Assembly (NCBI RefSeq): GCF_000688255.1
Contig: NZ_JHYS01000011.1
Coordinates: 1 to 64,000 of the forward strand
DNA: 64,000 nt
DNA from: Simplicispira psychrophila DSM 11588
GTDB taxonomy: Bacteria > Pseudomonadota > Gammaproteobacteria > Burkholderiales > Burkholderiaceae_C
Direction of reading: 5' to 3'
The notes under the pieces were generated by a model. The model saw only the letters and a program-made list of their open reading frames with translations. It did no database searches and was not told the DNA's origin. The position numbers and the translations under genes were made by a program. Every line of letters begins with the position of its first letter. Within the stretch, counting starts at the first letter, position 1. Positions 1,741 through 58,352 of the stretch are shown one piece after another.

Positions 1741-1801
1741 CTTATTTAATAGCTGCTAGCGCTTTCATCTAAAGGGCTATAGGCCGATTTGGCTTGTATT
1801 T
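1741..1801 (+). repeat. Dispersed AATAGCTGCTAGCGC repeat, copy at integrase 3' end
   Basis: AATAGCTGCTAGCGCTTTC is followed by AAAGGGCTATAGGCC. It is one of the best copies of a family found at least eleven times in the window. It supplies the last 14 or so codons and the stop of the integrase gene on the minus strand. A weaker piece (TGATAGCTATTTTGCG) lies nearby at 1658-1674. Confidence 0.8.
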
Positions 1802-3098
1802 GCGCCACCTTGGTGACCAACGGGATGACCTCCGCACCGACACGCAGGCGGTCGAGGTAGTCGGCCCATGTCTGCATCATGGCGCGGCGCTGCTCCATGT
1901 ATTCGGCGCGGTCGTAAGCACCACCCAGTGCGCCCTTCTTGCCGTGGCCAAGCTGCGCCTCCACCATATCGGCGTCTATGCCCGTCATTCTTTCGGCAAT
2001 CATGGTTCTGGCCATTGCCCGAAAACCGTGGCCTACATGGTCATCACTGCCAAAGTCCATACGCTTTAAGGCGGCGTTGATGGTGTTGTCGGACATAGGA
2101 CGCAAACTGGAGCGAGCACCGGGGAATACATAGCGCCCGCTGCCGGTCAGTGGTTGCAACTCTTTCAAGGCGGCAATCGCTTGCTTGGCCAGCGGAACAT
2201 GGTGCTGCCTGCCGTTGACCTTCTCATTCAAGGTGCGCTTCATGCTGGCGGGCGGTATGGTCAGCATGGCTTTGTCGAGGTCAATCCATGTCCATTCCAT
2301 CGCTCGGATATTGCCGGGACGCTGAAAGAAAAGCGCGGCCAGCCGTAGCGCTATCTTGGTGGTCGGACTGCCGTTGTAGCTATCCATGGCACGCAGCAGT
2401 GCCGCCACTTTTTCCGGCTCCAGCACAGCAGCAAAGTGTTTCGCTATATGAGGTCTCAATGCCCCTCTCAGGTCGGGCGCAGGGTTCTGTTCTATCCGAC
2501 CCGTCTGCACGGCATACCGCAATACCTGCCCCGCCATCTGCTGCAAGTCGTGCGCCGTGCTCAATGTGCCCTTGGCTTCCACCTTCTGCAAGGCTGCCAA
2601 CACGTCCTTTGTCTTGATTTCCTCCAATGGCTTGCGCCTGAGTTCGGGGAACAGATATAGCTCGTTCATGCGCAGCCATTTGCGGGCGTGACCTTCACTC
2701 CAGCCAGAGGCTTTGTTCTGATGGAACTCACGCGCCACAGCTTCGTAGGTATTGGTGGATGCCACTTTGGCGGCGTGCTTGTCATCTTGCTTGGCGGTGC
2801 TGGGGTCAACGCCTTGGGCCAGTTGCTCTTTGGCGCGCTTGCGGGCTTCGCGGGCCTGCGCCAGCGACACGGCGGGATAGACGCCGATGGATAGCGTCTT
2901 CTGCTTGTCGTGCATCCGGTAAGCCATGCGCCAATATTTACCCGCTGCCTTGATGTGCAGATACAGCCCTTGGCCATCGCTGTGCTTGTCGCCAACAGAT
3001 TTGCCGCTGTGCTTGGCGCTCTTGATAAAGGTGTCGCTCAGTGCCACGGTGCGCCCCTGGGTAGATTTGTTGGTATCTGGTTTGTTGGTATCTGCCAA
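1746..3098 (-). CDS. P4-type tyrosine recombinase (integrase)
   Basis: This 450-residue site-specific recombinase would insert and excise the island at the neighbouring tRNA-Gly gene. The N-terminal DUF4102 arm-binding domain (about 20-110) contains DGQGLYLHI, YWRMAYRMHDKQKTLSIG and the VYPAVSLAQAREARKRAKE stretch. A core-binding domain follows, then the catalytic domain with arginine in FFQRPGNIRAMEW, the HGFRAMARTM box and the tyrosine in GGAYDRAEYMEQRRAMM. Start: a stop lies directly upstream, so TTG at 3098 is the earliest start. The C-terminal residues KSAYSPLDESASSY are encoded by a dispersed repeat. The gene reads away from the tRNA, as usual for P4-like islands. Confidence 0.93.
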   Translation of the reverse strand: MADTNKPDTNKSTQGRTVALSDTFIKSAKHSGKSVGDKHSDGQGLYLHIKAAGKYWRMAYRMHDKQKTLSIGVYPAVSLAQAREARKRAKEQLAQGVDPSTAKQDDKHAAKVASTNTYEAVAREFHQNKASGWSEGHARKWLRMNELYLFPELRRKPLEEIKTKDVLAALQKVEAKGTLSTAHDLQQMAGQVLRYAVQTGRIEQNPAPDLRGALRPHIAKHFAAVLEPEKVAALLRAMDSYNGSPTTKIALRLAALFFQRPGNIRAMEWTWIDLDKAMLTIPPASMKRTLNEKVNGRQHHVPLAKQAIAALKELQPLTGSGRYVFPGARSSLRPMSDNTINAALKRMDFGSDDHVGHGFRAMARTMIAERMTGIDADMVEAQLGHGKKGALGGAYDRAEYMEQRRAMMQTWADYLDRLRVGAEVIPLVTKVAQIQAKSAYSPLDESASSY

Positions 3099-3120
3099 CT
3101 ACCAACAAAAGTACCAACAA
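3067..3120. repeat. Four copies of TTGTTGGTA, two direct and two inverted, at the integrase start
   Basis: TTGTTGGTA occurs at 3067-3075 and 3082-3090 (15-bp period) and its complement TACCAACAA at 3100-3108 and 3112-3120 (12-bp period). The position between the tRNA 3' end and the integrase start suggests arm-type integrase sites or autoregulatory sites. The first two copies are also translated as a TNKPDTNK-like repeat in the integrase N-terminus. Confidence 0.6.
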
Positions 3121-3164
3121 AATGATGGGCTTCCATGAAGCCCCGTGACATTGCGTGAGGCAAC

Positions 3165-3199
3165 AAAAAAGCCCCGCTCCTATGAAAGAGGGGGCTTTT
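3165..3199 (-). terminator. Rho-independent terminator downstream of tRNA-Gly
   Basis: On the minus strand a GC-rich stem (AAAAGCCCC pairing with GGGGCTTTT, arms at 3191-3199 and 3167-3175) runs into a T tract from 3170 to 3165. It lies 33 bp beyond the tRNA 3' end and separates tRNA transcription from the integrase. Confidence 0.75.
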
Positions 3200-3231
3200 G
3201 ATGCGGTATGACGCGGCCTGAAATGACGATT

Positions 3232-3305
3232 TGGAGCGAGTAGTGGGAATCGAACCCACGTTATTTGCTTGGGAAGCAAGAGTCCTACCATTGAACGACA
3301 CCCGC
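3232..3305 (-). tRNA. tRNA-Gly (anticodon CCC)
   Basis: The 74-nt sequence begins GCGGGTGTCGTTCAATGGTA and ends with encoded CCA. The acceptor stem GCGGGTG pairs with TACTCGC apart from wobble, the T arm contains GGTTCGATTCC, and the anticodon loop TTCCCAA gives CCC, reading GGG codons. It resembles the tRNA-Gly(CCC) family in size and loop. The 3' end is the presumed attachment site of the adjacent integrase. No second copy of the 3' end was seen in 1-3100, so the other island end is outside the window or lost. Confidence 0.93.
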
Positions 3306-3315
3306 GAAGCTCCAA

Positions 3316-3345
3316 ATTATAGGGCTGATTACTTCTGAATATCAC
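3316..3345 (-). promoter_or_regulatory. Putative promoter of tRNA-Gly
   Basis: TATAAT lies at 3321-3316 on the minus strand, 10 bp upstream of the tRNA 5' end. A weak -35 (GTGATA) is about 18 bp further upstream, inside the end of gabD. Confidence 0.5.
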
Positions 3346-4822: not shown

Positions 4823-4889
4823 ATGGGGGAGTCCTCGGGGCGGATGGAACAGAGAAGCCGCTTCAGGCTGCGCCGACGGCTACTAGAGT

Positions 4890-10555: not shown

Positions 10556-14068
<3,513 letters not shown>

Positions 14069-14140
14069 GGCAAGCGGCCGATTCTGTCAGGGTGCGTGTG
14101 CCGCCAAGCCGGGGGTGTCTTGGCATGGAACGCTACTTTT

Positions 14141-14200
14141 AATGGTATTTTAGGCCTCAAACGCATACTGCATAAGCGCTTGCAGCTATGAAAAATAACT
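14141..14200 (-). repeat. Dispersed repeat copy upstream of alaS
   Basis: Minus-strand reading gives CATAGCTGCAAGCGCTTATG, then GTTTGAGGCCTAAAATA, matching the family seen at 1741 and elsewhere. It lies in the intergenic gap between the hybrid kinase and alaS. Confidence 0.7.
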
Positions 14201-14335
14201 TTTACGCCCTGTGCCTAGGCGGGTGATGGGGCGTCTCTTGGCGCCAGGCGAGCCTCTGGGTGCCGCCCCCGCAGCGCGACCAGCCTGTTTTGGGCGCTGT
14301 GCCAGTCAGCGTGGGCAGCGCCACAGGGCAAAACC

Positions 14336-14404: not shown

Positions 14405-17029
14405 ATGAGCCAACCCACCTTCACCGTCGCTGACATCCGTAAGACCTTTCTGGACTTTTTTGCCTCCAAGGGCCACACCATCGTGCCGTCCAGCCCGCTG
14501 GTGCCGGGCAACGACCCGACGCTGATGTTCGTCAACTCGGGCATGGTGCAGTTCAAGGACGTGTTTTTGGGCACCGACAAGCGTCCCTACGTGCGCGCCA
14601 CCTCGGTGCAAGCCTGCCTGCGTGCTGGCGGCAAGCACAACGACTTGGAAAACGTCGGTTACACCGCGCGCCACCACACCTTTTTTGAAATGCTGGGCAA
14701 CTGGAGCTTTGGCGACTACTTCAAGCGCGAGTCGCTGCACTGGGCCTGGGAGCTGCTGACCGAAGTCTATAAATTGCCGGCCGACCGCCTGCTGGCCACG
14801 GTGTACCAAGAGGATGATGAGGCCTATGACATCTGGACGAAAGAAATCGGCCTGCCACCCGAGCGCGTGATTCGCATTGGCGACAACAAGGGCGGGCGCT
14901 ACAAATCCGACAACTTTTGGATGATGGCCGACACCGGCCCGTGTGGCCCATGCAGTGAAATTTTCTACGACCATGGCGAGCACATCCCCGGCGGCCCGCC
15001 CGGCAGCCCGGATGAAGACGGCGACCGTTTCATCGAAATTTGGAACAACGTGTTCATGCAGTTCGACATGGCCGAAGACGGCTCGGTCACACCGCTGCCG
15101 GCGCCCTGCGTCGATACCGGCATGGGCCTGGAGCGCCTGGCTGCCATCTTGCAGCATGTGCACAGCAACTACGAAATCGACATTTTTGACCAGCTGATCC
15201 AAGCCGCCGCCCGCGAAACCGGCATGACCGACCTGAACCACAAGAGCCTGCGCGTGATTGCCGACCACATCCGCGCCACCGCTTTCTTGGTCAGCGACGG
15301 CGTCATCCCCAGCAATGAAGGCCGCGGCTATGTGCAGCGTCGCATCGTGCGCCGGGCCATCCGCCACGGTTACAAGCTGGGGCAAAAAACGCCGTTTTTC
15401 CACAAGCTGGTCGCCGATTTGGTGCGCTTGATGGGCGACGCGTACCCGCAATTGCGCGCGCAAGAGCAACGCATCACCGACATTCTGAAAGCCGAGGAAG
15501 AGCGCTTCTTTGAGACGCTGGCCAACGGCATGGAGATTTTGGACAGCGCGCTGGCCGGTGGCGCCAAGCTGCTGCCGGGCGATGTCGCTTTCAAACTGCA
15601 CGACACCTACGGCTTTCCGCTGGATTTGACCAATGACGTCTGCCGCGAAAACGGCATCGAAGTGGATGAGGCCGGCTTCAGGGTGGCGATGGAAAAGCAG
15701 AAGGCCCAGGCGCGTGCGGCGGGCAAGTTCAAGATGGACAAGGCGCTGGATTACAGCGGCGATGGCAACGAATTTGTCGGCTATGAACTGCTTGAATCCA
15801 CTGCAAAAATCGTAGCTATTTACGCAGATGGTGTCAGCGTTGCAGCCCTGAAACAGGGTCAAAACGGCATCGTGGTGCTGGACAGCACGCCGTTCTATGC
15901 CGAAAGCGGCGGCCAGGTCGGCGACGAAGGGACTATCACCAGCGGCTCGGCCCGTTTTGCGGTGGACGACACGCTAAAGATCAAGGCCGACGTGTTTGGC
16001 CACCACGGCACGCTGGCCGAGGGCACTTTGAATGTCGGCGACACGGTGCAGGCGCAGGTGAACACGGCTGTGCGCGCTGCCACGGTGCGCAATCACTCGG
16101 CCACGCACCTGATGCACAAGGCGCTGCGTGAGGTGCTGGGTGAACATGTGCAGCAAAAGGGCAGCCTAGTCAACGCCGAGCGCACGCGCTTTGACTTTGC
16201 GCATGGCGCGCCGGTCAGCGCTACTGAGATCCGCGAGATTGAGCGCCGCGTAAACGAAGAAGTGTTAGCCAACCGCGCCACACAAGCGCGCGTGATGGAC
16301 ATCGAGTCAGCCCAAAAAACTGGCGCCATGATGCTGTTTGGCGAGAAATACGGCGAAACCGTGCGCGTGCTCGACATTGGCAGCAGCCGCGAGCTGTGCG
16401 GCGGCACGCACGTACAGCGGACGGGCGACATTGGTTTGTTCAAGGTGGTGGGCGAGGGTGGCGTGGCCGCCGGCGTGCGCCGCATCGAGGCTGTCACTGG
16501 CCTGAACGCGCTGGCCTATTTGCAGTCGCTCGAAGGCACCGTGTCGCAAGTTGCGGGTGTGCTGAAAGCACCGGCAGCCGAGATCACTGGCCGCGTCGGC
16601 CAAGTGCTGGAGCAAGTCAAAGCGCTGGAAAAAGACGTGGCCGCGCTCAAGGGCAAGCTGGCCTCATCGCAAGGCGATGGGCTGCTGGATCAGGCGGTGG
16701 ATGTGAACGGCCTGAAGGTGCTGGCGGTGCGCCTGGACGGGGCCGATGCCAAGACTTTGCGCGACACCATGGACAAGCTGAAAGACAAGCTGAAAAGCGC
16801 CGCCATCGTGCTGGCCACGGTCGATGGCGATAAGGTGCAAATTGCAGCCGGTGTGACGGCTGACGCGATGGGCAAGATCAAGGCCGGTGAGCTGGTCAAC
16901 TTTGTCGCGCAACAAGTCGGCGGCAAGGGCGGCGGCAAGGCCGATATGGCGATGGCTGGCGGTACCAATCCGGCAGGCCTGCCGGCCGCGTTGGCTTCGG
17001 TTGCTGGCTGGGTCGCGCAGAAAATGTGA
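14405..17029 (+). CDS. alaS: Alanyl-tRNA synthetase
   Basis: This 874-residue class II synthetase charges tRNA-Ala in the cytoplasm. From the N-terminus: the catalytic domain ([20 protein letters not shown], motif 1 region; [20 protein letters not shown], motif 2), tRNA-recognition region, editing domain with the zinc-site [12 protein letters not shown] and [13 protein letters not shown], and the C-terminal DHHA1 domain ending [19 protein letters not shown] with [14 protein letters not shown]. Length equals the E. coli enzyme. ATG 14405 is chosen because [15 protein letters not shown] is the conserved start; longer in-frame extension is not family-like. A stretch around codons 465-487 resembles the dispersed repeat. 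A strong terminator follows. Confidence 0.97.
15798..15865 (+). repeat. Possible dispersed-repeat-like stretch inside alaS
   Basis: TAGCTATTTACGCAGAT, then AGCGTTGCAGCCCTGAAA and TCAAAA, aligns by eye with the copy in ygiQ at conserved spacing (TAGCT..CGC..AGCG.T..G.CC..AA). However, the encoded residues align in length with other AlaRS proteins, so this may be native sequence with chance likeness. Confidence 0.3.
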
Positions 17030-18194: not shown

Positions 18195-18953
18195 TCAGGC
18201 CACGCGTACAAATACGACATCCCAGACGCCGTGGCCCAAACGCAGACCTCGGTTTTCAAACTTGGTCAGGGGGCGGTAGTCGGGCTGCGGGGCATAGCCG
18301 CTGGCGCTGTCAGTGCTGTTGCGCAGCAGGGGCTGCTCAGACAGCACTTGCAAAATTTGTTCGGCGTAGGGCTGCCAGTCGGTAGCGCAGTGCAGGTAGC
18401 CGCCGGGCTTGAGACGGGTGGCCAGCTTGGCAATCAAAGGCGCCTGGATCAGGCGGCGTTTGTTGTGCTTTTTCTTGTGCCAGGGGTCGGGAAAGAAGAT
18501 GTGTACGCCATCCAGGCTGGTCGGCGTGAGCATGTGGTCTATCACTTCAACCGCATCGTGGGCCAGGATGCGTACATTGGTCTGGCCTTGTTCGCCCAGG
18601 CGCTTGAGCAGGGCGCCAACGCCGGGTTCATGCACTTCGCAGCACAAAAAATTGTCTTCGGGGCGCACGCGCGCAATGTGCGCCGTGGCCTCGCCCATGC
18701 CAAAGCCAATTTCCAGCACCAGGGGTGCTGTGCGGCCAAAGGCGGCCGGAGCGTCGAGTCGTTGGCCGGTGTAGGGCAGGATGAAGCGCGGCCCCAGTTC
18801 TTCAAAGGCCTTGGCTTGGCCGCTGGTGGTGCGGCCGGTGCGGCGGACAAAGCTTTTGATGGTTTTGGGATAAGCGACGCCAGCCGGCGCCGTGCCGACC
18901 ACGGGAGCGGCAGGGGATTCGGGGGGGGAAGGGGGGAGGGCGGATTCAGTCAC
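18195..18953 (-). CDS. trmB: tRNA (guanine-N7-)-methyltransferase
   Basis: This SAM-dependent enzyme methylates G46 in the variable loop of tRNA. Motifs: [16 protein letters not shown] (SAM site), [19 protein letters not shown], and the signature [20 protein letters not shown]. The C-terminal [14 protein letters not shown] is also typical. The GTG at 18953 overlaps the gluQ stop (GTGA), a coupling seen elsewhere in this region, and gives 252 residues; an ATG at 18992 would give 265 residues but overlaps gluQ by 43 bp. The N-terminal 25 residues are Pro/Ala-rich and not conserved. Confidence 0.93.
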
Positions 18954-19954
18954 AGTGCGCGATTGTAGAGATGCCTCCAGGCGTTGACCCACAGTGCCAG
19001 GGCATCAGACAGCGAATTGTTCGCTATCGATAGTAAAGGTGGCAGGCCCAATGTGGTGGCCGCATCGTTCAAACTGACGAGGGGTTGTTGTAGATCAAGG
19101 GCCGGTGCGCCATGCTGTTTGGACAGCTTCTCGCCATCGGTGCCGCGCACCAAAGGGGTGTGCAAATAGTACGGTGGGGCTACGCCCAGTGCGTGCTGCA
19201 GCAGGATCTGGCGCGGCGTGTTGTCGGCCAGGTCGGCACCGCGCACTACATGCGTGATGCCCTGCGCGGCGTCGTCCACCACCACGGCCAATTGGTAGGC
19301 CCACAGGCCATCGGCGCGGCGCAGCACAAAGTCGCCGACGGTATGCAGTACGTCTTGCTGCTGCGCTCCCAGGCGCCGGTCGTACCAGTGCAGTACCTGC
19401 GATGCTCCTTTATTAATAGCTAGTTGCGCTTGCTGCGCAAGCGCTTGAGCCTGTTTTGACTCAAATTGAGGCCAAAAATCAGTGGTGTTGAAACGCCAGG
19501 CGCGTGCACTGCGTCCTTGCAGTCCGCTGCGACAGGTGCCGGGGTAGGGTTGCTCGATATGGCGCTGGTGCGCATGGCCCTGCACGGCGTGGGCCGCGGC
19601 GATGTCTTTGCGCGAGCAGGCGCAGGGGTAGGCCAGTCCCGCGGCCTGCAATTGCGCTAACGCAGTTTGGTAGGTGGGGCTGCGGGTGGATTGCCACAGC
19701 GGTGTGTCGTCGGGCCGCAGGCCGCAACTGGCCAGCTGCGCCAAGATGTGCTCGCCCGCGCCGGGCATGCAACGCGGGGTATCGACATCTTCGATGCGTA
19801 CCAGCCAGCGACCGCCCTGGCCGCCTGGGTTGCAGGCGCGGGCGTCGAGCCAGCTGGCCAGTGCTGCCACCAGCGAGCCGGCGTGCAGCGGCCCGGTGGG
19901 GGAGGGAGCAAAACGGCCGACGTAGCCGGCGCTTGCGCCCTTCACGTTCGTCAT
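18950..19954 (-). CDS. gluQ: Glutamyl-Q tRNA(Asp) synthetase
   Basis: These 334 residues form a GluRS-like catalytic domain that attaches glutamate to queuosine in tRNA-Asp. It shows the HIGH-like [16 protein letters not shown], cysteines for zinc ([10 protein letters not shown] and YPGTCRSG), [20 protein letters not shown] and the KMSKS-like [11 protein letters not shown]; no anticodon-binding domain, as expected. ATG 19954 overlaps the upstream oxidoreductase stop (ATGA). Between [11 protein letters not shown] and [10 protein letters not shown] about 25 residues are encoded by a dispersed repeat in frame, in a loop region. It precedes trmB, so two tRNA modification genes are coupled. Confidence 0.94.
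19407..19480 (+). repeat. Dispersed repeat copy inside gluQ
   Basis: TTAATAGCTAGTTGCGCTTG, CAAGCGCTTGAGCCTGTTTT and TGAGGCCAAAAAT match the family, with the internal GCGCTTG/CAAGCGC inverted repeat well preserved. On the minus strand it is read through in gluQ without a stop, as the residues [20 protein letters not shown]. Confidence 0.8.
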
Positions 19955-22244: not shown

Positions 22245-22946
22245 ATGTTGACCCTTCGCAAATCGCAAGACCGAGGCCATGCCGACCATGGCTGGCTGAA
22301 TTCGTTTCACAGCTTTTCTTTTGCCGGCTATCACGATCCTCTGCACATGGGGTTTGGCAATCTGCGCGTTATTAATGAAGACCGCATTGCCCCGGGTACC
22401 GGATTTGGCGCACACCGCCACCAGGACATGGAAATCATCAGTTACGTGCTCTCGGGCGAATTGGCACACCAGGACAGTCTGGGCAACATCAAGGGCATCC
22501 CGCCAGGCGATGTGCAGCGCATGAGTGCCGGAAGCGGCGTGGTGCACAGTGAGTTCAACCATGCGGCCGGCCAGACCACGCATTTTCTGCAGATCTGGAT
22601 CGAGCCCCAGGTGAAGGGCATCGCGCCGAGCTATGAGCAAAAAAGTTTTACACAGGCTGAAAAACGTGGTGTCCTGCGTTTGGTCGCGTCGCCCGACGGC
22701 GCACAAGGCTCTGTGCGCGTGCACGCGGATGCGTCCATGTACGCCGGTCTGTTTGACGGCGCCGAGGCCACTGCCCTGGTGCTTCACCCCGCGCGCAAAG
22801 CCTATGTGCATCTGATACGTGGAGCACTGGAGGTCAACGGCCAGGCGCTGGTGGGTGGCGATGCCGCGCTGCTGCAGGGTGAGTCCCTTTTGCGCTTGGG
22901 CAGTGCCAAAGACGCCGAAGTGCTAGTGTTTGACTTGGCAGCCTGA
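22245..22946 (+). CDS. Pirin family protein (bicupin)
   Basis: This 233-residue bicupin starts at ATG 22245 with AGGAG 8 bp upstream. The N-terminal cupin has the metal motif GFGAHRHQDMEIISYVLSGE and HSEFNH, as in YhhW-type quercetinase pirins: histidines and a glutamate that bind an iron or similar ion. The start MLTLRKSQDRGHADHGWLNS is family-like. Relatives include quercetin dioxygenases and redox-responsive regulators; the substrate here is unknown. The stop codon is at the edge of a dispersed repeat. Confidence 0.92.
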   Translation: MLTLRKSQDRGHADHGWLNSFHSFSFAGYHDPLHMGFGNLRVINEDRIAPGTGFGAHRHQDMEIISYVLSGELAHQDSLGNIKGIPPGDVQRMSAGSGVVHSEFNHAAGQTTHFLQIWIEPQVKGIAPSYEQKSFTQAEKRGVLRLVASPDGAQGSVRVHADASMYAGLFDGAEATALVLHPARKAYVHLIRGALEVNGQALVGGDAALLQGESLLRLGSAKDAEVLVFDLAA

Positions 22947-23022
22947 TAGCACCGATTTGAAGGGAAATTGGCCTGAAGCCCTTGCCAGAAAAGCGCTGTT
23001 AGCTCATTTATTGATAGTGTTT
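22945..23022 (-). repeat. Dispersed repeat copy between pirin and trhO
   Basis: The minus-strand reading ATGAGCTAACAGCGCTTTTC, CAAGGGCTTCAGGCCAATT fits the family. It provides the last codons and stop of trhO (TINK and TGA) and touches the pirin stop. Confidence 0.7.
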
Positions 23023-23756
23023 GACGGGCTGACAGACAAGCTGGGCTCCAGCACCCGGCGCGCATCAAAGACAAAACAGCCGTTGTGGTAGTAGTTGCCG
23101 TCGGTCTGCTCGAAGTATTTGAGGATGCCGCCTTCCAGCTGGTAGACGTGCTCGACACCTTCTTCACGCATCAGGAGGGCGGCTTTTTCGCAGCGGATGC
23201 CGCCGGTGCAAAAGCTCACTACGGTCTTGCCGGCCAGTTCGGTCTTGTGCGCGCGCAGGGCCGGCGGAAATTCGGTGAACTTGCTGATGCGCCAGTCGAT
23301 GGCGCCATCAAACGTGCCGGCATCGACCTCGAAGTCGTTGCGCGTGTCCAGCATCGCCACTGCACGGCCGGTATCGTCGTGGCCCTGGGCCAGCCAGCGG
23401 CGCAGCGTCGGCGCATCGACCGAGGGCGCGCGCCCTTGGCTGGGCACGATGGCCGGGTGGTCCATGCGGATGATCTCGCGCTTGACCTTGACCAGCATTT
23501 TGCGAAATGGCACCTGCGCCGACCAGCTCTCCTTGGGCTGCAGATCGGCAAAGCGTGCGTCTTGCCGCAAGGTGTCGATAAAAGCGCGCACAGGTTCGGC
23601 ATGTCCGGCGAGAAAGAAGTTGATGCCTTCCTCGGCCAGCAAGATGGTGCCCAGCAGTTGCGCTGCGCTGGCGCGCGCTTGCAGCGTGTTGCGCAGTACT
23701 GCCGCATCGGGCAGGGGCACAAACTTGTAGCAGGAAATATTCAGGATGGGGAGCAT
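23004..23756 (-). CDS. trhO: tRNA uridine(34) hydroxylase (rhodanese-domain, TrhO/YceA family)
   Basis: This 250-residue member of the YceA/TrhO family forms 5-hydroxyuridine at tRNA position 34, an oxygen-dependent route. The N-terminal part has LNISCYKFVPLPD and GTILLAEEGINFFLAG; the rhodanese domain (about 125-220) carries the active-site loop VSFCTGGIRCEKAALLM. The second cysteine in the loop is a family mark. The usual C-terminal cysteine-containing tail is short here: the protein ends SVSPSNTINK, where the last residues come from a dispersed repeat, so the native tail may have been lost. Confidence 0.88.
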   Translation of the reverse strand: MLPILNISCYKFVPLPDAAVLRNTLQARASAAQLLGTILLAEEGINFFLAGHAEPVRAFIDTLRQDARFADLQPKESWSAQVPFRKMLVKVKREIIRMDHPAIVPSQGRAPSVDAPTLRRWLAQGHDDTGRAVAMLDTRNDFEVDAGTFDGAIDWRISKFTEFPPALRAHKTELAGKTVVSFCTGGIRCEKAALLMREEGVEHVYQLEGGILKYFEQTDGNYYHNGCFVFDARRVLEPSLSVSPSNTINK

Positions 23757-35130: not shown

Positions 35131-35137
35131 GGTGAAT

Positions 35138-35199
35138 TTAAATGAAATCGGCTCACAGCCCATATACATCAAGCGCTTTAAGCTATCAAAATTAAAGCA
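35138..35199 (-). repeat. Dispersed repeat copy upstream of the chromate pair
   Basis: Minus strand reading: TTTTGATAGCTTAAAGCGCT, TGATGTATATGGGCTGTGAG, CCGATTTCATTTA. A moderately diverged copy, directly upstream of the first chr gene and 120 bp before the FAH gene. Confidence 0.6.
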
Positions 35200-35321
35200 A
35201 TTCGGTGGACTGCAGCAGGCGGAAAAAGCGCTTGATGGTACGCCTGCATCGGACGATTTTCAGTGCGTCAGCGCAAAATCCAAACCCCAAGCAAAATTCC
35301 AAAAAACCCAAGGAGACACCC

Positions 35322-36167
35322 ATGAAACTGGTTCGTTATGGCCCCGCTGGCGCAGAGCGCGCGGGACTGGTGGATACGCAAGGCGTGCTACGTGATCTGT
35401 CGATGTTGTTGCCCGATATTGGTCCGGCCCAACTCAGCCCGCGCACCCTGGCCGCGCTGACCACCATCGATGCCAGTCGCCTGCCTGCGGTCGATGGCCA
35501 GCCGCGTCTGGGCTGCCCGGTGGGCAGCGTCGGCAAGATCGTTTGCGTCGGCCTGAACTACGCCGACCACGCGCTCGAAGCCGGTTTGCAAGCGCCCACC
35601 GAGCCGGTGCTGTTCATGAAGGCGACCACTGCACTGAACGGCCCGAATGACTCGGTGCGCCTTCCCCCCGGCGCACAAAAGACCGACTGGGAGGTGGAAT
35701 TGGGCATCGTCATTGGCACCCGTGCCAGCCACATCACCGAGGCCGACGCCTTGCAGCATGTCGCTGGCTATGTGCTGGCCAACGATGTTTCCGAGCGCAG
35801 CTACCAGACCGAGCGCGGTGGCCAATGGGACAAGGGCAAGGGATGCGACACCTTCGCCCCGATCGGCCCGTGGCTGGTGACAGCCGACGAAGTGCCCGAC
35901 CCTCACGCCATCGCTCTGTGGTTGGAAGTCAACGGCCAGCGCGTACAGGACGGCCATACGCGCAACTTCATTTTTGGCGTGCCCACGGTGCTGGCCTACA
36001 TCAGCCAGTTCATGACGCTGGAGCCCGGCGACATCGTGCTGACTGGCACCCCTGCCGGCGTCGGCCTGGGCCAGAAGCCCGTGCCATGGTTCTTGAAGCC
36101 TGGTGACGTGGTGCGGCTGGGTGCCAGCGGCCTGGGTGAGCAGGTGCAAACCTGCACCGGCAGTTAG
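35322..36167 (+). CDS. Fumarylacetoacetate hydrolase (FAH)-family protein
   Basis: This 281-residue enzyme has the FAH fold with GKIVCVGLNYADHALEAG, the metal-binding acids in DWEVELGIVIG, VAGYVLANDVSERSYQ and DIVLTGTPAGVGLG. Members cleave or hydrate C-C bonds of 2-oxo acids and include ureidoglycolate lyase-like and acylpyruvase enzymes; the ending YISQFMTLEPGDIVLTGTPA is like 2-hydroxyhepta-type isomerases. Substrate cannot be decided. ATG 35322 has AAGGAG 9 bp upstream. Confidence 0.9.
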   Translation: MKLVRYGPAGAERAGLVDTQGVLRDLSMLLPDIGPAQLSPRTLAALTTIDASRLPAVDGQPRLGCPVGSVGKIVCVGLNYADHALEAGLQAPTEPVLFMKATTALNGPNDSVRLPPGAQKTDWEVELGIVIGTRASHITEADALQHVAGYVLANDVSERSYQTERGGQWDKGKGCDTFAPIGPWLVTADEVPDPHAIALWLEVNGQRVQDGHTRNFIFGVPTVLAYISQFMTLEPGDIVLTGTPAGVGLGQKPVPWFLKPGDVVRLGASGLGEQVQTCTGS

Positions 36168-37940: not shown

Positions 37941-38058
37941 AAAGGCGTTCAAAAGCCCTATGGCTGGAACTGGGGTGCTGTGCGCAATCCTCCTCATGAG
38001 CTATCAAAAAAATAGCTTCTACCGCTTAATTGATAAGCGTTTCGGGGTGATTTGACAT
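37941..38058. repeat. Inverted pair of dispersed repeats
   Basis: Plus-strand copy at 38008-38058 (AAATAGCTTCTACCGCTTAA, TGATAAGCGTTTCGGGG) faces a minus-strand copy at 37941-38010 (TGATAGCTCATGAGGAGGAT, CCATAGGGCTTTTGAA). They meet at GAGCTATCAAAAAAATAGCT. This lies in the 250-bp gap between the sugar dehydrogenase and VIT genes. Confidence 0.6.
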
Positions 38059-38167
38059 GAGAAATGAAAGTCTGACCTCTCTTGATTTCAGTGTCCATTT
38101 GGTGATTGACGAATAGCTGTTCTGGCCTGTACCCTGACAGCCTTCAAGACGCTGACCCAAACCCGCC

Positions 38168-41072: not shown

Positions 41073-41140
41073 GGGCGATCTCCAGGTCAAGGTTTTTCAA
41101 TGGCCGCTCTTGGCACCATAGCATGTCATCCTGGGTTCTT

Positions 41141-41212
41141 GTTTTTGCATTGAAATGCCTTGTATCGCTGGCTGGTTAAGCGGTATTAGCTATCTTTTGA
41201 ATAGTAAATTCA
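41141..41212 (-). repeat. Dispersed repeat copy at the EAL gene 3' end
   Basis: Minus strand: AAAAGATAGCTAATACCGCT, TAACCAGCCAGCGATACAAG, GCATTTCAATG. The last residues (IQKIANTA) and the stop of the EAL protein are encoded by it. Confidence 0.65.
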
Positions 41213-44112
41213 TCGGCCATGGGGTGGGAAGAGAAGGTCTGCTCGGGGTCGCCTTGTTCGGCGTGGGCACTCAGGTTGTCGCGGAAAAATTGCTCGAACA
41301 CTTGGGGTAGCAGGGGGCGGCTGAAGTGGTAGCCCTGTATCTGATCGCAACCGCGTGCGCGCAAAAATTCAAGTTGTTCGATGGTTTCGACGCCTTCGGC
41401 GATGGTGCTCATGCCCAGGCTGTGTGCCATCTGGACGATGGCCGTGGCGATGGCCTGGTCGTCGTGGTCGGTACTGATGTCGCGCACAAAGGATTGGTCG
41501 ATTTTGAGCTTGTGGATGTTGAAGCGCTTCAGGTAGCTCAGGGACGAGTAGCCGGTACCAAAGTCGTCAATCGACAGGCGGATGCCTTGCTGGCCCAGCT
41601 CCTTCATGGTCTGGGCAGCGATTTCCGGGGCTTTCATGGCAACGGCTTCGGTCAGTTCCAGTTCCAGGCATTCGGGGGCGATGCCGGTGTGTTGCAGCAT
41701 CTGGCGTACCAGGTCGGCTAGTCCGGCCTGGCTGAATTGCACGGCCGAGATGTTCACTGCCATGGTCATTCTGGGCAGGCCTTGGTCGAGCCAGTTGCGC
41801 AGTTGGCGCAGGGCGGTTTCCAGTACCCATTCACCGATCGGCACGATGAGGCCGTTGGCTTCCGCCAGGGGGATGAATTCGCCCGGCGAGATGAAGCCTA
41901 GTTGCGGATGGGTCCAGCGCAGGAGCGCTTCGGCGCCGATGATGCGGCCATCGGCCAGCGCCATTTGTGGCTGGTACACCAGGTGCAGTTCGTTGCGGTG
42001 CAGGGCTTGCTTGAGGGCGTTGCCCAACTCCAGCGCGCGCGCCGAGTGCGCTTGCATCTCGGCGGTGAAAAAGCGGTAGCTGTTGCGCCCTTCGTCCTTG
42101 ACGCGGTACATGGCGTTTTCGGCGTTTTTTAGCAGGGTTTCGAGATCGTCGCCGTCGCCGGGGGTGATGGCAATTCCGATGGACGCAGTCAGAAAGACTT
42201 CCTGTCCTGCCACCATGATGGGCTGGGCCAGGTTCTCCAGCAGGCTGATGCAGCGCTGCGCGGCTTCGCTTTGGCTGGTATGGGCCAGCAGGGCGACAAA
42301 GTCGTCGCCGGAATGGCGTGACAGGGTATCTTCGTCGTGCAGATGCGTGCGCAGGCGCAGCGAGACTTCCAGCAGCAGCAGGTCACCAGCGCTGTGGCCG
42401 AGCGAGTCGTTGACGTCCTTGAAGCGGTCCAGGTCGATCCACAGCACGGCCAGGGTCTGGCTCTGGCTGATGGCGTATTGGAAACGCTCGCGCAGCAGAG
42501 CGCGGTTAGGCAGGTTGGTGAGTTGGTCGTAGTGCGAGAGCTGGCGGATGTGCGCGGCGGCCTGTTTGCGCTCGGTCATGTCCTCTTTGTGGGCCAAGTA
42601 GCTGGTGACCACGCCTTCGGTGTTGCGCACCGGATAGATCAGTACCGATTCGATGTATTCACGGCCGCTTTTGCTGCGGTTGATCAGTTCGCCCTGCCAG
42701 GATTTGCCTTGTTGCAGGTGCTCCCACATGTTGCGGTAGGTCGCTGCTGGGGTTTTGCCGGACTGCAGCATGCGCGGGTTTTGTCCCAGCAATTCGGCCA
42801 AGGTGTATTCGCTGGCAAGGAGGAAGGCATCGTTGACAAATTCGATGTGTGCCTGCAGATCGGTAATGACCAGGGGATGTGGGCTCTGTGACACGGCCTG
42901 GGAGAGTTTGCGCATGGACTCTTCCTGGCGGCGACGCTGGGTGATGTCGCGTGAAATGACGACAAAGCGCTGGCGCTTCCCCGGTGGCGGTGGCGCCTGG
43001 CGCGTGATCGACAGTTCAAACCAGTGTTCGTTATGGCGTGTTTTTACCGAGATAGTGTGCCCGCGGGAGAAGCCTTTTTCTTGGGCTTCAGCCAATGCTG
43101 CGTAGGCCGTCTGGGCGCTTTGCGGGGAGAGCATCTGGCGCATGGTTTTGCCCAGCAATTTTTCTGGCGGGGCAGCCGGGCTGCCGGAGTGGCCGACGTG
43201 GGCTTGCAGATAGCGTCCCTCATCGTCCATTTCCAGCAAGACGTCGGGCAGTGCATCCAGCATCGCCTGCAGTTGCATTTTGGAGGTGCGCAACTGCGCA
43301 TAGGGCGATTGGACCGTGGCAACGAAGGCGGCGCGGTACAAAAAGCAGTAGGCCAGTATTTTGTAGACATGCCCCGCTAGGTTGTAGGTGTCGGTGACGT
43401 TGCCGTAGCGTGTGAAGAAAAATTCACCCAGGCCCATGATGGCGGCGGCTGCAAACAGACCGCTGGCGTTAAAGCTGTGCGGTTGGTACATCTGCCGTAG
43501 CAGCAGGACGGCAGCCACCAGGTTGAGCGCGATCAGGATGTATTCAAAGGCGATCTTGAAGGGGGGCAGTCCCTGGCCTGCAATAAAGGTGGTCGGCAGG
43601 AACTGTGGATAAAACAGCAGCAGCGCGTACAGGGCTGCCACTGTTGCCAATACCAGTAGCAGCATGGGCAGTGGACGCAGGCGAGCGCTGTCGTTGCTGG
43701 TGCTCCAAGGCAGGATGGCGACGGCGAGCAAGGCCAGTGCGCTCAGCAGCCGCGCCGCTAGCCAGAAGTTGATGGCCTTGGACGGGGAGCTGGGGGTGAT
43801 GAAGTCCGGCATTCCCTGGTAGGAAAGCATGTGGCCAAAATCGAGCAGACTGACGCCCAGAAAGGCACAGGCCAATAGCAGGGCGTTGCGCGGTAACTGC
43901 TCATGCCGCGCGCTCCAGACGACGCTAAAAATGAATCCGGCGACAACAATGGCCAGCGTTTCCAGTGCTAAGTGCAGGGGCAAAAAATGCGTTGCGCCCC
44001 CGCCCTTCGCAGGCGAGAGCGGCCACCAGAGCAGCAGCAGCACTACCGATAGTGCCCCTACGGTGCGAATGGCTCGACGGGCTTCAGGCTGGTGGCTGGG
44101 GTGAATCGGCAT
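41176..44112 (-). CDS. MASE3-like sensor with PAS, degenerate GGDEF and EAL domains
   Basis: This 978-residue membrane signalling protein has eight or so N-terminal membrane helices (about 17-270; GHMLSYQGMPDFITPS and MGLGEFFFTRYGNVTD are MASE3-like), PAS (about 285-410), PAS/PAC (about 420-540), GGDEF (about 545-710) and EAL (about 725-960). The GGDEF site is SRHSGDDFVAL, so SGDDF rather than GGDEF, probably weak or inactive. The EAL domain keeps EALLRW, LELELTEA, IDDFGTGYSS, KIDQSFVRD and AEGVET, all needed for c-di-GMP hydrolysis. ATG 44112 is chosen; sequence upstream is not protein-like. The C-terminus comes from a dispersed repeat. Confidence 0.92.
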   Translation of the reverse strand: MPIHPSHQPEARRAIRTVGALSVVLLLLWWPLSPAKGGGATHFLPLHLALETLAIVVAGFIFSVVWSARHEQLPRNALLLACAFLGVSLLDFGHMLSYQGMPDFITPSSPSKAINFWLAARLLSALALLAVAILPWSTSNDSARLRPLPMLLLVLATVAALYALLLFYPQFLPTTFIAGQGLPPFKIAFEYILIALNLVAAVLLLRQMYQPHSFNASGLFAAAAIMGLGEFFFTRYGNVTDTYNLAGHVYKILAYCFLYRAAFVATVQSPYAQLRTSKMQLQAMLDALPDVLLEMDDEGRYLQAHVGHSGSPAAPPEKLLGKTMRQMLSPQSAQTAYAALAEAQEKGFSRGHTISVKTRHNEHWFELSITRQAPPPPGKRQRFVVISRDITQRRRQEESMRKLSQAVSQSPHPLVITDLQAHIEFVNDAFLLASEYTLAELLGQNPRMLQSGKTPAATYRNMWEHLQQGKSWQGELINRSKSGREYIESVLIYPVRNTEGVVTSYLAHKEDMTERKQAAAHIRQLSHYDQLTNLPNRALLRERFQYAISQSQTLAVLWIDLDRFKDVNDSLGHSAGDLLLLEVSLRLRTHLHDEDTLSRHSGDDFVALLAHTSQSEAAQRCISLLENLAQPIMVAGQEVFLTASIGIAITPGDGDDLETLLKNAENAMYRVKDEGRNSYRFFTAEMQAHSARALELGNALKQALHRNELHLVYQPQMALADGRIIGAEALLRWTHPQLGFISPGEFIPLAEANGLIVPIGEWVLETALRQLRNWLDQGLPRMTMAVNISAVQFSQAGLADLVRQMLQHTGIAPECLELELTEAVAMKAPEIAAQTMKELGQQGIRLSIDDFGTGYSSLSYLKRFNIHKLKIDQSFVRDISTDHDDQAIATAIVQMAHSLGMSTIAEGVETIEQLEFLRARGCDQIQGYHFSRPLLPQVFEQFFRDNLSAHAEQGDPEQTFSSHPMADEFTIQKIANTA

Positions 44113-50574: not shown

Positions 50575-52968
50575 ATGAACGCCCCTGTTGACGTTTCTTT
50601 CTTTGCGCGCGCCGCAAAACCCATCACCAGCTACCGCCCTTACTGGGCCAAGCGCTTTGGTACGGCACCGTTTTTGCCGATGAGCCGCGCCGAGATGGAG
50701 CAGCTGGGCTGGGACAGTTGCGACATCGTGCTGGTCACCGGCGATGCCTACATTGACCACCCGAGCTTTGGCATGGCCATCATTGGCCGGGTGTTAGAGG
50801 CGCAAGGCTTTCGCGTCGGCATCATTGCCCAGCCGGATTGGCAGAGCGCCGAGGCGTTCAAGGCGCTGGGCAAGCCCAATTTGTTTTGGGGCGTGACGGC
50901 GGGGAACATGGATTCGATGATCAACCGCTATACGGCAGATCGCAAAATTCGCTCGGACGACGCTTACACCGCCGGTGACATTGCCGGCAAGCGCCCCGAC
51001 CGCGCGGCCATCGTCTATAGCCAGCGCTGCCGCGAAGCCTACAAAGAGGTGCCGATCATTCTGGGCGGCATCGAAGGCAGCCTGCGCCGCATTGCCCACT
51101 ACGACTACTGGAGCGACAAAGTGCGCCGCTCCATCGTCGTCGATAGCAAGTGCGATTTGCTGCTGTACGGCAACGCCGAGCGGGCGTTGGTCGAGGTGGC
51201 GCACCGCATCGCCGCGCGCGAGCCCTTGGAGAGCATCACCGATGTGCGCGGCACCGCTTTTGTGCGCCGCACCACGCCCGAGGGATGGTTTGAGATTGAC
51301 TCGTCCAGCGTCGATCAGCCGGGCCGGGTCGAAGACCACATCAATCCCTACCAAACCACCAGCGAGCAAGCGGCGGCGCAGGGCAGCAGTTGCAGTAAAG
51401 AAGATGGCGCGGCAGCCGCCGCTGCGGGCACGTCAAATACTACTGATTTAATAGCTGGTAGCGCAGGCGCAGTAAGCGCTACAGGCCAAAAAGACCAAAA
51501 AATTGGCGCTACCACGCACGCGCTGAACTTTGTGCCCAATCCGGCCCTGCAAGGCAAGCAAAAAGGCCCACCGCGCGACCGCACGGTGATCCGCCTGCCC
51601 AGCTACGAGCAGGTCAAAAGCGACCCAGTGCTGTATGCCCACGCCAGCCGCGTGCTGCACTTGGAGACCAACCCCGGTAACGCCCGCGCACTGGTGCAGG
51701 CGCATGGTGAAGGCACCACGGCGCGCGATGTCTGGCTGAATGCGTCGCCGATTCCGCTGACCACGGCGGAGATGGACGCCATCTTTGACCTGCCGTATGC
51801 GCGCAATCCGCACCCGCGCTATGCCGATGAGCATGGCCGTTTTGACGGTGCCACCAAGATTCCGGCGTGGGAGGTGATTCGCTTTTCGATCAACATCATG
51901 CGCGGCTGTTTTGGCGGCTGCACCTTTTGCTCGATCACCGAGCACGAGGGCCGCATCATCCAGAGCCGCTCTGAAGACTCCATCGTGCGCGAGATGGAAG
52001 ACGTGCGCGACAAGGTGCAGGGCTTTACCGGCACCATTTCTGACTTGGGTGGCCCGACGGCGAATATGTACCGCCTGGGTTGCCGCACGCCGGAGATTGA
52101 AGCCGCTTGCCGCAAACCCAGCTGCGTTTACCCCGGCATTTGCCAAAACCTGACCACCAACCACGACCCGCTGATCAAAATCTATAAGCGCGGCCGGGAG
52201 TTGAAAGGCATCAAAAAAATCTTGATCAGCTCGGGCGTGCGCTACGATCTGGCGCTGGAGTCGCCCGAGTACGTCAAAGAGCTGGTGCAGCACCACGTCG
52301 GCGGCTACTTGAAGATTGCTCCCGAGCACACCGAGTCCGGCCCGCTGACCAAGATGATGAAGCCGACCATCGGCAACTACGACAAGTTCAAGGCGCTGTT
52401 TGAAAAGTACACGCTAGAGGCCGGCAAAAAGCAGTTTTTGATTCCGTACTTCATCGCGGCCCACCCTGGCACCAGCGACGAAGACATGATGAATCTGGCC
52501 ATCTGGCTGAAGAAAAACGCCTTCCGCGCCGACCAGGTGCAGGCCTTCTACCCCAGCCCGATGGCGACGGCGACGGCGATGTACCACACCGGCAAAAACC
52601 CGCTGCGCAAGATCACCCGCGACAGCGAAGAAGTCGCCATCGTGCGCGGCGAGAAACGCCGGCGTCTGCACAAAGCCTTTTTGCGCTACCACGACCCGAA
52701 CAACTGGCCGCTGCTGCGCGAGGCGCTCAAAGCCATGGGGCGCGCCGATTTGATTGGCAACGGCAAGCACCACCTGATTCCGACCTTCCAGCCGGCAGTG
52801 ACCGCCTGCGGTGCGCCGCGCAAGCCGATGACGCAGGCCGAGGCTAAAGCCGCCCCGCGCGTGCCACGGGCGCAGCCGCAAAAGGGCAATCTGCAAACCC
52901 AGCACACCGGTCTGCCGCCGCGTGTGACGGGCTCAGGCAAACCGCCTGCCGCGCGCAAAGGGCGTTAA
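50575..52968 (+). CDS. ygiQ: YgiQ-family radical SAM protein
   Basis: This 797-residue protein has a N-terminal YgiQ domain ([39 protein letters not shown]), a radical SAM core with [19 protein letters not shown] (three cysteines at about 443-450), [16 protein letters not shown] and a C-terminal DUF3362-type end with Lys/Arg-rich tail. The reaction is unknown. An Ala/Ser-rich insert of about 60 residues (about 263-325) is present at a variable loop; its middle is encoded by a dispersed repeat in frame ([20 protein letters not shown]). ATG 50575. Confidence 0.94.
51441..51510 (+). repeat. Dispersed repeat copy inside ygiQ, in frame
   Basis: TTTAATAGCTGGTAGCGCAG, AGTAAGCGCTACAGGCCAAA matches the family. 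It is read through without a stop and falls in the variable insert of YgiQ, so it looks like a tolerated insertion. Confidence 0.8.
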
Positions 52969-52983
52969 ACGGTCAATTTGCTA

Positions 52984-53046
52984 TTGAATAAATAGCTGCT
53001 AGCGCACGTGTTTAAAGGGCTAGATGCTGTTTTGACTGATATTTAG
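52984..53046 (+). repeat. Dispersed repeat copy between ygiQ and the SpmAB-like gene
   Basis: AATAGCTGCTAGCGCACGTG, TTTAAAGGGCTAGATGCTGT, TTTGACTGATA is one of the clearest copies, matching the one at 1741 closely. It fills most of the 86-bp gap between convergent genes. Confidence 0.8.
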
Positions 53047-55194: not shown

Positions 55195-55212
55195 ACCGCC
55201 ACGCGCCGCTGA

Positions 55213-56081: not shown

Positions 56082-56099
56082 AAGAAAGCACACGCATCC

Positions 56100-56861: not shown

Positions 56862-56874
56862 GGGTTGGGACACC

Positions 56875-58164
56875 ATGCCAAAACAGGCTCCAAAGAGCGC
56901 AGAGATTGCAGCCACTGCGCTGGCGCTGCACGACACACGGGTATTTTTTGAGAAGGCGCTGGCCTACGGCGTGCAGCACGGCATCATCGACACTGCCACG
57001 CTGGATGCCATCCATGCCGAGGCGCCCAAGGGCATGGTGCAAATTGCGCGCTACTTTGGGAACGAGTTTTTGCGCCCCGAGCTAGAAAAAGCGCGCGAGC
57101 GCATGGTCAATCTCATCAGCCTGTATTTGCAGGAAAGCTGCGACAACGACTTGCGGGCGGCTGCGCAGTCATTACGCCAAAACTCGCTGCTGTCGCGCTC
57201 CAAAGGCGGCTCCGATATGCTGCGCCGTCTGATTGGCCTGCCCGAAAGCAGTCACTTCGGCATGGCCGGCAGCGACGAGGCGCAAACGCCGCTGCTGGCG
57301 CTGTGGGCGCTGCGCAGCCACGCTGAATACCGCAGCGAGCTGGCGCGGCGCAGCCATATCGCCGAAGCGATTAAAGCGGCGCTGTGGCTGGTGGCGCCGT
57401 ACCACCTTGACATCGATGATTTGGAGGAGGCTGGCACCGACGCCGAAGCCGTCATCCGCGCCGCCCTGCTGTGGCGCGCGCTGGTGCCGCGCGCGCGCGC
57501 ATGGCCGACGACGCCGGCACTACAGAAGGTGCTGACCGAACTGCGCAAAAATCGTGGCACTGGCCCGCTGCCGGCGCTGGAGCTGCACTTGCCCAACAGC
57601 CTGCCGACGCACTTGCACGCGGTGGTGCACACTGAATTTGCCGCCGTCCAGGCCGACTGGCCGCGCTGGATGGACAGAGCCCAGCCACTGAGCGCGCTGC
57701 TGAGTCCCTTGGGACGAATGCGGGCGCGCTATTTTTTATCGGATGACCCGCTGGCCGAAATGGAAGAGTACGAGCAGCAGCTGTCGGTGCTCACCGTGCT
57801 GGACGCCGGCGAGGCCGCGCCGCAACCGGCCAGCAAAACTTGGCTGCGCCTGACGCAAGGCCAGACTGACGAGCACGCGCTGCTGACTTTGTTCTTGTGC
57901 GTCGCAGTCGGCACGCCGAAGAAAACACTGCTGACCGAGAAAACCGCCGCCAGTCTGGTGCGCAAAATTCGCAAACACAGCTGGCAGCCAGCGTTGGCCA
58001 CGGCGTTCATCAGCGAACACGCGCCGGGTGCATTCCAGCAGGACTACGTCGCGCTATGGGACAGTTTTGTGCAGGAGTCGCAGCGCACGCTGTTCGATGA
58101 CCACGACATCACCCTGAGTGACGCGCTGGCGCTGCTGCGCCGCGAGTGCCATGTGCAAGGCTGA
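56875..58164 (+). CDS. Unknown 429-residue protein at the end of the J-domain cluster
   Basis: This protein is not recognised. It starts MPKQAPKSAEIAATALALHD, then helical repeats rich in Ala/Leu (IAEAIKAALWLVAPYHLDID, DAEAVIRAALLWRALVPRAR), and ends HDITLSDALALLRRECHVQG. No signal peptide, membrane helix or known catalytic motif is seen. 13 bp after the previous gene, so the same transcript. The shape suggests an alpha-helical scaffold. Confidence 0.85.
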   Translation: MPKQAPKSAEIAATALALHDTRVFFEKALAYGVQHGIIDTATLDAIHAEAPKGMVQIARYFGNEFLRPELEKARERMVNLISLYLQESCDNDLRAAAQSLRQNSLLSRSKGGSDMLRRLIGLPESSHFGMAGSDEAQTPLLALWALRSHAEYRSELARRSHIAEAIKAALWLVAPYHLDIDDLEEAGTDAEAVIRAALLWRALVPRARAWPTTPALQKVLTELRKNRGTGPLPALELHLPNSLPTHLHAVVHTEFAAVQADWPRWMDRAQPLSALLSPLGRMRARYFLSDDPLAEMEEYEQQLSVLTVLDAGEAAPQPASKTWLRLTQGQTDEHALLTLFLCVAVGTPKKTLLTEKTAASLVRKIRKHSWQPALATAFISEHAPGAFQQDYVALWDSFVQESQRTLFDDHDITLSDALALLRRECHVQG

Positions 58165-58237
58165 CTGAAATGTAGATCGGGTTAGCCCAAAGGGCGTAAC
58201 CCGACAGGTGTTAGACAGGGGTTAACAAGATGGCAGC

Positions 58238-58352
58238 GCCAATTAAAAAGTGAGCTGGTAGCGCACGTATTGCTTAAGTTTCAGATGCTTTTATGCCTGA
58301 ATCTCTTTAGATAAGTGCGCTAGCAGCTATCATTTTTAAATCAATAGGCGCA
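58238..58352. repeat. Inverted pair of dispersed repeats forming a large imperfect hairpin
   Basis: A plus copy (GAGCTGGTAGCGCACGTATT, from 58251) and a minus copy (TGATAGCTGCTAGCGCACTT, from 58332 downward) face each other with TTTTATGC near the middle. The transcript would fold into a long stem, and could end both the J-domain cluster and the ccm operon. Confidence 0.7.

Follow-up and report, generated by a model that had tools for sequence, protein, structure and literature searches.

Copies of a 68-bp imperfect palindrome are scattered over the genome of Simplicispira psychrophila DSM 11588, and ten of them, one in a palindromic form of 108 bp, lie in the 64,000-nucleotide stretch analyzed here (contig NZ_JHYS01000011.1, positions 1 to 64,000; hereafter the window). 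The copies are largely kept in place across related species, even in genes, and at sites common to two genera their centre differs like a dialect; the element is therefore probably read by something in the cell. We lean towards the view that it is a dispersed recognition site in double-stranded DNA, with a putative reader that co-evolves with it and dialects that shift through this co-evolution or through drive. The usual view of dispersed bacterial repeats is that they are selfish relics. In the present case a given site can be traced between genera, including sites in housekeeping genes (MutS and the presumed GluQ), and the centre differs in step with the rest of the genome.

Structure and copy number of the element

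The initial annotation had proposed a dispersed repeat of about 60 bp, and this was borne out. With up to three mismatches, AATAGCTGCTAGCGCTT matched the window 7 times against 0.16 expected in shuffles, and with at most one mismatch the core TAGCTGCTAGCGC matched the whole genome 227 times against 11 for the reversed pattern. A profile of the left half was run on a 464-kb sample (the window and 20 further stretches, some picked for earlier matches, so that density is biased upwards); it found 117 places at 10 bits or more, far above Markov shuffles, which gave none. The 11 window sequences noticed at the outset aligned without gaps over 68 columns, and a covariance model made from them recovered all 11 at 43-65 bits, a match that is partly by construction. 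On the same 464 kb a covariance model gave 92 matches at E <0.01. Their length is nearly fixed, in place of the spacer of 5-12 bp that had been suggested: 83 of the 92 are exactly 68 bases long and the remainder 65-70. The edges are sharp, and outside the ~68 stacked columns information lies at background and composition is that of the genome.

The consensus, TTACTATTAAATTAATAGCTGCTAGCGCATGTATCTAAAGGGCTAGAGGCCGATTTGACTTAAAATTT, is an imperfect dyad with its centre at position 33. Its left arm (idx 0-25) terminates in ATAGCTGCTAGC, the centre occupies 22 bp (idx 26-47), and the right arm (idx 48-67) reads GCC.ATTT.AC..AAA. The dyad is real, as 59% of opposed cells can pair at i+j=66 compared to 30-44% at ten other offsets. 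The predicted pairing of GCGCTT with AAGCGC is imperfect: at idx 26/40 of 193 copies, the most frequent combinations were G-C (116) and G-G (69). The palindromic form consists of two left halves inverted around a common centre, measures exactly 108 bp and is recurrent: among 16 convergent half pairs in the 464 kb, 8 lay at 108 bp, 5 at 67, 2 at 43 and 1 at 166, the 67-bp pairs being both sides of one single element.

Extrapolation from density suggests ~550-700 copies in the 3.6-Mb draft genome, and in the genus Simplicispira there is about one element per 5-6 kb. Regular chromosomal spacing was not consistent among three genomes (dispersion 0.46, 0.86 and 1.06 compared to 0.87-0.90 simulated). 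Replichore polarity was also set aside: the list of core-match positions looked polar in some genomes, but capped lists of this sort seem to report forward positions first, and none was seen by eye among 150 scored matches in the complete G497 genome. Some of the whole-genome profile scans scored no more than 150 candidates per genome. The closest pair in the S. psychrophila sample (L104:12437-12504 and 13226-13293) is 0.93 identical, with its members 790 bp apart and each directly after a hairpin that by eye resembles a terminator. This pair therefore looks like a local duplication.

Retention in place and dialects of the centre

To follow copies between species, 280 kb each of three sister genomes (G492, G513 and G497; blastn identity 80-84%) were compared for 84 source elements. 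In 105 of the 118 comparisons in which both flanks were mapped, the element was retained with its orientation unchanged and a score of at least 20 bits. Of the 13 others, 5 had at least 12 bits in the other orientation, 1 scored 12-20 bits and 7 scored lower; three of these 7 loci were still of element length, and no clean empty site was found in the 118 comparisons. Element-by-genome tests over eight genomes placed 86 of 134 at orthologous positions compared to 4.7% for random gene ends, in a comparison where many of the tests involve a single in-gene site and the random gene ends include no in-gene places. We conclude that the element is not recently mobile. The initial annotation had likened it to mobile repeats of the repetitive extragenic palindromic (REP) or miniature inverted-repeat transposable element (MITE) type, to be checked by filled and empty sites, and had named conservation at orthologous sites in relatives as a ground for rejecting this; the retention seen here comes close to that ground.

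Presence still differs at some places. A radical SAM gene that we take to be of the YgiQ type carries the element in S. psychrophila and in 12 other members of the genus, weakly in G498, and is without it, in frame and without exact breakpoints, in G490, G503 and G510. Presence at this site is variable within the genus, so gain or loss has happened there. Copy number also varies widely across the family, and spread or loss must therefore once have occurred. At the GluQ site the element was found in 20 of 22 element-rich or genus genomes, representing 15 of 17 genera, in a survey whose genomes were picked mostly for high element counts. By the position rule G095 and G009 (gene matched in pieces) were without it, and with the Simplicispira profile the copies of G071 and G113 scored no higher than 11.7 and 12.0 bits, respectively. 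Many GluQ genes among a set of 80 named loci were without the insert.

Column information measured in S. psychrophila was then applied to the other genomes. Between G492 and G513 mismatch was 0.105 at columns of at least 1 bit compared to 0.328 at columns below 0.4 bit, and between G492 and G497 it was 0.169 compared to 0.438. On the G513 lineage, 17 of 242 high-information positions had changed as against 21 of 85 at low-information columns (~3.5-fold fewer), and noncoding sites taken by themselves gave 8/118 compared to 12/38 (p=0.0003). The G513 copies were located by their flanks, not by the profile, and comprised 11 of 12 sites mapped in three genomes, one being dropped for orientation, with 5 noncoding. 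The element is under constraint in situ, because a neutral relic would not know which columns are conserved among its paralogues. The amino acids that the element encodes in YgiQ are poorly conserved (0.43, compared to 0.84 for the gene).

Three genomes of other genera (G015, G113 and G009), with high core counts and few or no full-length matches, retained the arms while the centre differed to varying degree. G113 held 243 elements in 800 kb (shuffles, 0), with the centre GCAGatTcTATGCCGGC. When arms only were searched, 227 of 239 G113 copies had the G113 centre; in the genus Simplicispira none of 229 copies had it, 218 had the Simplicispira centre and 11 were undecided. Relative to orthologous genes, eleven G113 sites had the same place and orientation as Simplicispira copies, giving 18 pairs. 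Five of these sites lie within genes, four at gene 3' ends and two at 5' ends; for two pairs, which belong to a single site, the gene is 48% identical. All eleven sites bore the G113 centre.

At these sites the arms of orthologous partners were 0.607 identical compared to 0.537 when permuted (p=0.0008), while for the centre the values were 0.376 and 0.363 (p=0.22); the test took a single partner for each site and so used 11 of the 18 pairs. Since independent re-insertion at the same place in each lineage would not retain arm history, we conclude that one of the two lineages had its centres rewritten at existing sites. At the GluQ site, which lies outside the G113-profile stretches and where the G113 copy was located with the Simplicispira profile, the difference in centre score was +41.3 in G113 and -1.5 or less in 19 others. 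Constant arms with a dialect-specific centre offer a concrete bait for a reader, and genome-wide dialect switching becomes directly testable.

The element is confined to part of one family. Of 150 family genomes, 24 had 30 or more core matches together with a count no less than double that of the control, in a scan that used the core of one dialect and so undercounts the others (G113: 243 copies in 800 kb compared to 109 core matches in the whole genome). Among 349 genomes of the order (10 of the family), none outside the family exceeded 13 core matches. At 12 bits or more, the 80 named loci gave copies in Comamonas, Brachymonas, Simplicispira, Giesbergeria, Curvibacter, Rhodoferax and Polaromonas, and none in the stretches from Limnohabitans (5), Hydrogenophaga (8), Rubrivivax (4) and Acidovorax (1). 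Dispersal, both orientations, internal pairing and the lack of a linked transposase had been put forward at the outset and are supported, as are restriction to the family, an imperfectly palindromic form and enrichment 3' of genes. A low-sensitivity search of 72,556 plasmid records returned one weak match, from Comamonas testosteroni (E 0.04). The element was also matched strictly on eleven IMG/VR contigs (12 stretches, L291-L302), with more than one copy on some of them; these contigs may represent phage DNA or the flanks of a host.

A putative reader and its rivals

In the reading that we favor, a putative sequence-specific factor in a subset of the family's genera would read the 68-bp dyad as DNA rather than as RNA. 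A protein would recognize the element, and a shift in its specificity, helped by selection or molecular drive, may have rewritten the centres of one lineage. Candidate roles for this reader include chromosome organization, the marking of self DNA for uptake or recombination, or some other function.

Several points weigh against this proposal. The reader protein is putative only, and genes were predicted with a simple in-house caller. Averaged over columns, the element is not clearly slower than its noncoding flanks, so that the column-wise tests carry the argument: in gap-rich noncoding alignments, mismatch in element and flanks was 0.218/0.250 for G492-G513 and 0.235/0.165 and 0.233/0.161 for the G497 pairs. 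Indels per 100 bp in the same comparison numbered 1.5/6.2, 2.8/4.6 and 5.2/5.4 in the three genome pairs. Because average mismatch does not beat the flanks, we set our support for a recognition site slightly lower. The same-codon signal in YgiQ is modest (59/74, or 0.80, compared to 0.66 for the gene and 0.53 for the loop flanks) and comes from 9 of 17 loci that could be aligned, in species that are not independent. The remaining 12 G113 copies of the arms-only search were Simplicispira-like (6) or undecided (6). The eleven common sites were located with the full G113 profile, which makes their centre partly a matter of construction and the arms-only count the fairer one. A rank test of G015 at GluQ failed (13th of 20; 10 copies, with a centre much like that of Simplicispira). 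Finally, slow columns and common centres could also arise by short-tract gene conversion among copies.

Conversion of this kind belongs to the nearest rival, which we consider rather unlikely. In it the arms serve as targets for homology or for a recombinase, short-tract conversion or a putative template-directed exchange carries the 22-bp centre from element to element, and new dialects spread by replacement at existing sites without new insertions. It would account for a centre that differs while the idiosyncrasies of the arms persist, for the near-constant length and for the lack of clean empty sites; substitutions in such number at hundreds of sites would also be hard to obtain by point mutation and selection alone. 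However, the enzyme and the template are putative only, and arm columns are likewise among the slow ones. The nearest copies within a genome have a median identity of only 0.71 (S. psychrophila sample) and 0.75, which leaves homogenization of whole elements weak. A broader version can be put forward tentatively, namely that up to ~1000 fixed addresses, marked by conserved arms, have their central word overwritten in concert at a dialect change, genes included, by template-directed or recombination-driven rewriting or by reader drive.

The position of the copies relative to genes bears on several alternatives. After merging, the S. psychrophila sample held 88 elements at a median distance of 8 bp from a gene 3' end. 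Co-directional spacers contained 49 of them, convergent spacers 20 and divergent spacers 11; 7 were in predicted genes and 1 was unclear. Across four Simplicispira genomes (1,304 kb; 232 elements scoring at least 25 bits) there were 51 in convergent, 117 in co-directional and 16 in divergent spacers, with 48 in genes. Convergent spacers were enriched (51 of 184 intergenic copies compared to 17.8% of spacer bases) and divergent ones depleted (16 of 184 compared to 24.9%; p=2e-7 for placement), while orientation relative to the upstream gene was even (58 same, 55 opposite).

Copies in predicted genes made up 8 of 103 in S. psychrophila and 40 of 129 in three sister genomes. These 48 are concentrated in a few frames: 22 lie in opposite frame 2, 13 in same frame 1 and 8 in same frame 0, with 5 in others. 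In S. psychrophila the host genes include those for MutS, a SpoU-type methylase, the ribonucleotide reductase small chain, PRA isomerase, an HI0933-like protein, a tRNA-synt_1c protein and a radical SAM protein. In G113, 110 of 243 copies lie in predicted genes, 85 of these in two reading frames, and many of its proteins would thus bear an element-encoded peptide. Rickettsia palindromic elements are likewise palindromic repeats fitted in frame in genes.

This placement, close to 3' ends and in convergent spacers, would suit an intrinsic two-way terminator or an mRNA 3'-end hairpin, and a further point for it, which also counts against a pure recognition site, is that convergent-spacer copies lean to the tracts of a two-way terminator, tending to have A on the left and T on the right (left A in 26 and T in 11 of 41). 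Some copies may therefore double as terminators. As a general account, however, termination appears improbable. No covariation across the dyad was found beyond column composition (z=1.0, n=193; best single pair z 2.3), fold energy was only slightly below shuffles (z near -1.3 on one strand and -1.15 on the other), and in one-sided copies tract polarity is independent of the reading direction. In addition, 48 of the 232 copies lie inside predicted genes, and the two near-identical copies described above already follow a terminator-like hairpin. We rejected the intrinsic terminator as a class, as a conserved RNA stem with a U tract in the reading direction was not seen, although the convergent copies gave partial support. 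Rfam models at gathering thresholds detected only a tRNA in the window, and the element matched no known RNA family.

A DNA uptake or recombination signal, like a DNA uptake sequence (DUS) or uptake signal sequence (USS), is a possibility to which we give limited weight. Biased uptake of self DNA would keep the copies near consensus, and genera would have their dialects. Dialects, near-consensus copies and a distribution over genes and spacers were all found, and the G113 copies in genes fit this picture. DUS are 10-12 bases long and denser, and at 68 bp and one per 3-6 kb the present element is far longer and sparser. The parts covered here of a study of Neisseriaceae DUS (PMC3630211) likewise describe dialects and dyad arrangements, with copies both inside and between genes and in inverted pairs at terminators; the element differs in its length and density and is known here from sequence alone. 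In the literature searched, no paper was found that links "DNA uptake sequence" to Comamonadaceae.

We regard as very unlikely a REP repeat, bacterial interspersed mosaic element (BIME) or MITE-type repeat that is still spreading by a transposase such as a REP-associated tyrosine transposase (RAYT). Copy number, palindromy, the 108-bp inverted units and placement 3' of genes speak for it, and the one Y1_Tnp match in S. psychrophila that spans most of the profile has an element on each side. Among RAYT loci of the genus, copies lay on both sides in 2 of 19 compared to 1.9% of 966 background genes, inverted in G493 and in the same orientation in S. psychrophila; 4 of 23 loci were not parsed. On the other hand, the one-sided neighborhood was near background (5' 2/19 compared to 12.6%, 3' 7/19 compared to 18.6%), and the 3' copies, at much the same place, in part represent one inherited site. 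RAYT-like homologues occurred in 142 of 150 family genomes irrespective of copy number. A comparison of RAYT type with dialect covered just three members of the genus, with a RAYT at 55-56% identity, and in these the YgiQ centre was Simplicispira-like.

No target-site duplication was found in 77 copies, where z reached 3.6 at most over 960 choices of boundary. Neither strand of the consensus has the GT(A/G)G head, at most 23 of 232 copies sharing such a tetramer at one place. Spreading of this type is largely refuted for the present. Descent from a MITE or insertion sequence was rejected, with neither target-site duplications nor clean pairs of filled and empty sites. The parts covered of the work on REP/BIME and RAYT (PMC2817692) describe a GT(A/G)G head before the palindrome, a rayt gene flanked by inverted copies and complementary mutations that keep the palindrome. 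Hundreds of imperfect palindromes, inverted units and placement 3' of genes are common to both, but the element is without the head, a firm RAYT linkage or compensated pairing and has more copies in genes (G113, 110/243). Membership was rejected on these grounds, flanking of RAYT by inverted copies included; high copy number and inverted composite units are what it shares with the class. Separately, partial Y1_Tnp (IS200-like) frames were noticed in L031-L034 (C5, C16 and C22 of the S. psychrophila genome, G000), three of the four at contig ends; they may belong to a multi-copy insertion sequence at which the assembly broke.

Tong et al. 2017 (PMC5217627) listed uncharacterized spaced motif pairs, among them GCTTAT(N)5AAGCG with 114 copies in Acidovorax ebreus and ATAGCT(N)22CAAAAG with 125 in Polaromonas naphthalenivorans, Rhodoferax ferrireducens being the genome with most pairs. 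In the parts of that paper covered, these pairs likewise lie near gene ends, many in convergent spacers, and a 68-bp element, dialects and an analysis of orthologous sites were not found. The first pair fits idx 26-31 and 37-41 and is present there in 10 of 232 copies. ATAGCT occurs at idx 14 in 171 of 232 and CAAAAG at that spacing in 0 of 232, which makes the Polaromonas identity tentative. The BRE family of Bordetella and other Betaproteobacteria, according to the parts of PMC3110155 covered, is also of similar size and sometimes in genes. It was set aside, by description and not by sequence, as composition and arrangement differ (GC-rich, with 69% in Bordetella; arranged in tandem arrays; no genome tabulated with more than 29 copies). 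No other description of the 68-bp element was found in the literature searched.

Copies in the window and their surroundings

Elements were present at the places first noticed, with some corrections to the list. Two copies lie inside genes and in frame with them: 19402..19469 (+) in the glutamyl-Q-type tRNA synthetase-like gene 18950..19954 (-; PF00749, tRNA-synt_1c), for which we assume the name GluQ, and 51437..51504 (+) in the radical SAM gene 50575..52968 (+; PF08497, PF04055 and PF11842). A further copy, 52978..53045 (+), sits just 3' of the stop codon of the latter gene in a convergent spacer, and none was seen in the corresponding spacers of four relatives.

Three copies overlap the 3' ends of genes. 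The strongest, 1735..1802 (+, 65 bits), encodes the last residues of a phage-type integrase gene (1746-3047, -). The one at 22953..23020 (-), first placed at 22945, overlaps gene 23004-23756 (-), and 41140..41207 (-) overlaps a GGDEF/EAL gene (41176-44043, -); both recur at the same place in G498. The copy at 35133..35200 (-), 5' of gene 35322-36167 (+), is at the same place in G497 and G498, and 14136..14203 (-, 48.8 bits) lies in a divergent spacer. What had been taken as a pair at 37941 contains one good copy, 37998..38065 (+), between co-directional genes; its partner is a weak scrap on the other strand (~37985-38018, 13.5 bits). The supposed pair at 58238 is instead a single 108-bp palindromic unit (58237..58344, no strand assigned) in a convergent spacer, one of the 8 such units. 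A possible degenerate copy at 15798..15865 (+) is weak (21.7 bits, E 0.35).

The integrase gene adjoins a tRNA gene (3235-3305, -; together 1746-3305), and the left end of the window is therefore probably the edge of an integrated island. The same left-end region contains a perfect 33-bp inverted repeat at 387-419 and 1040-1072, its halves 620 bp apart.

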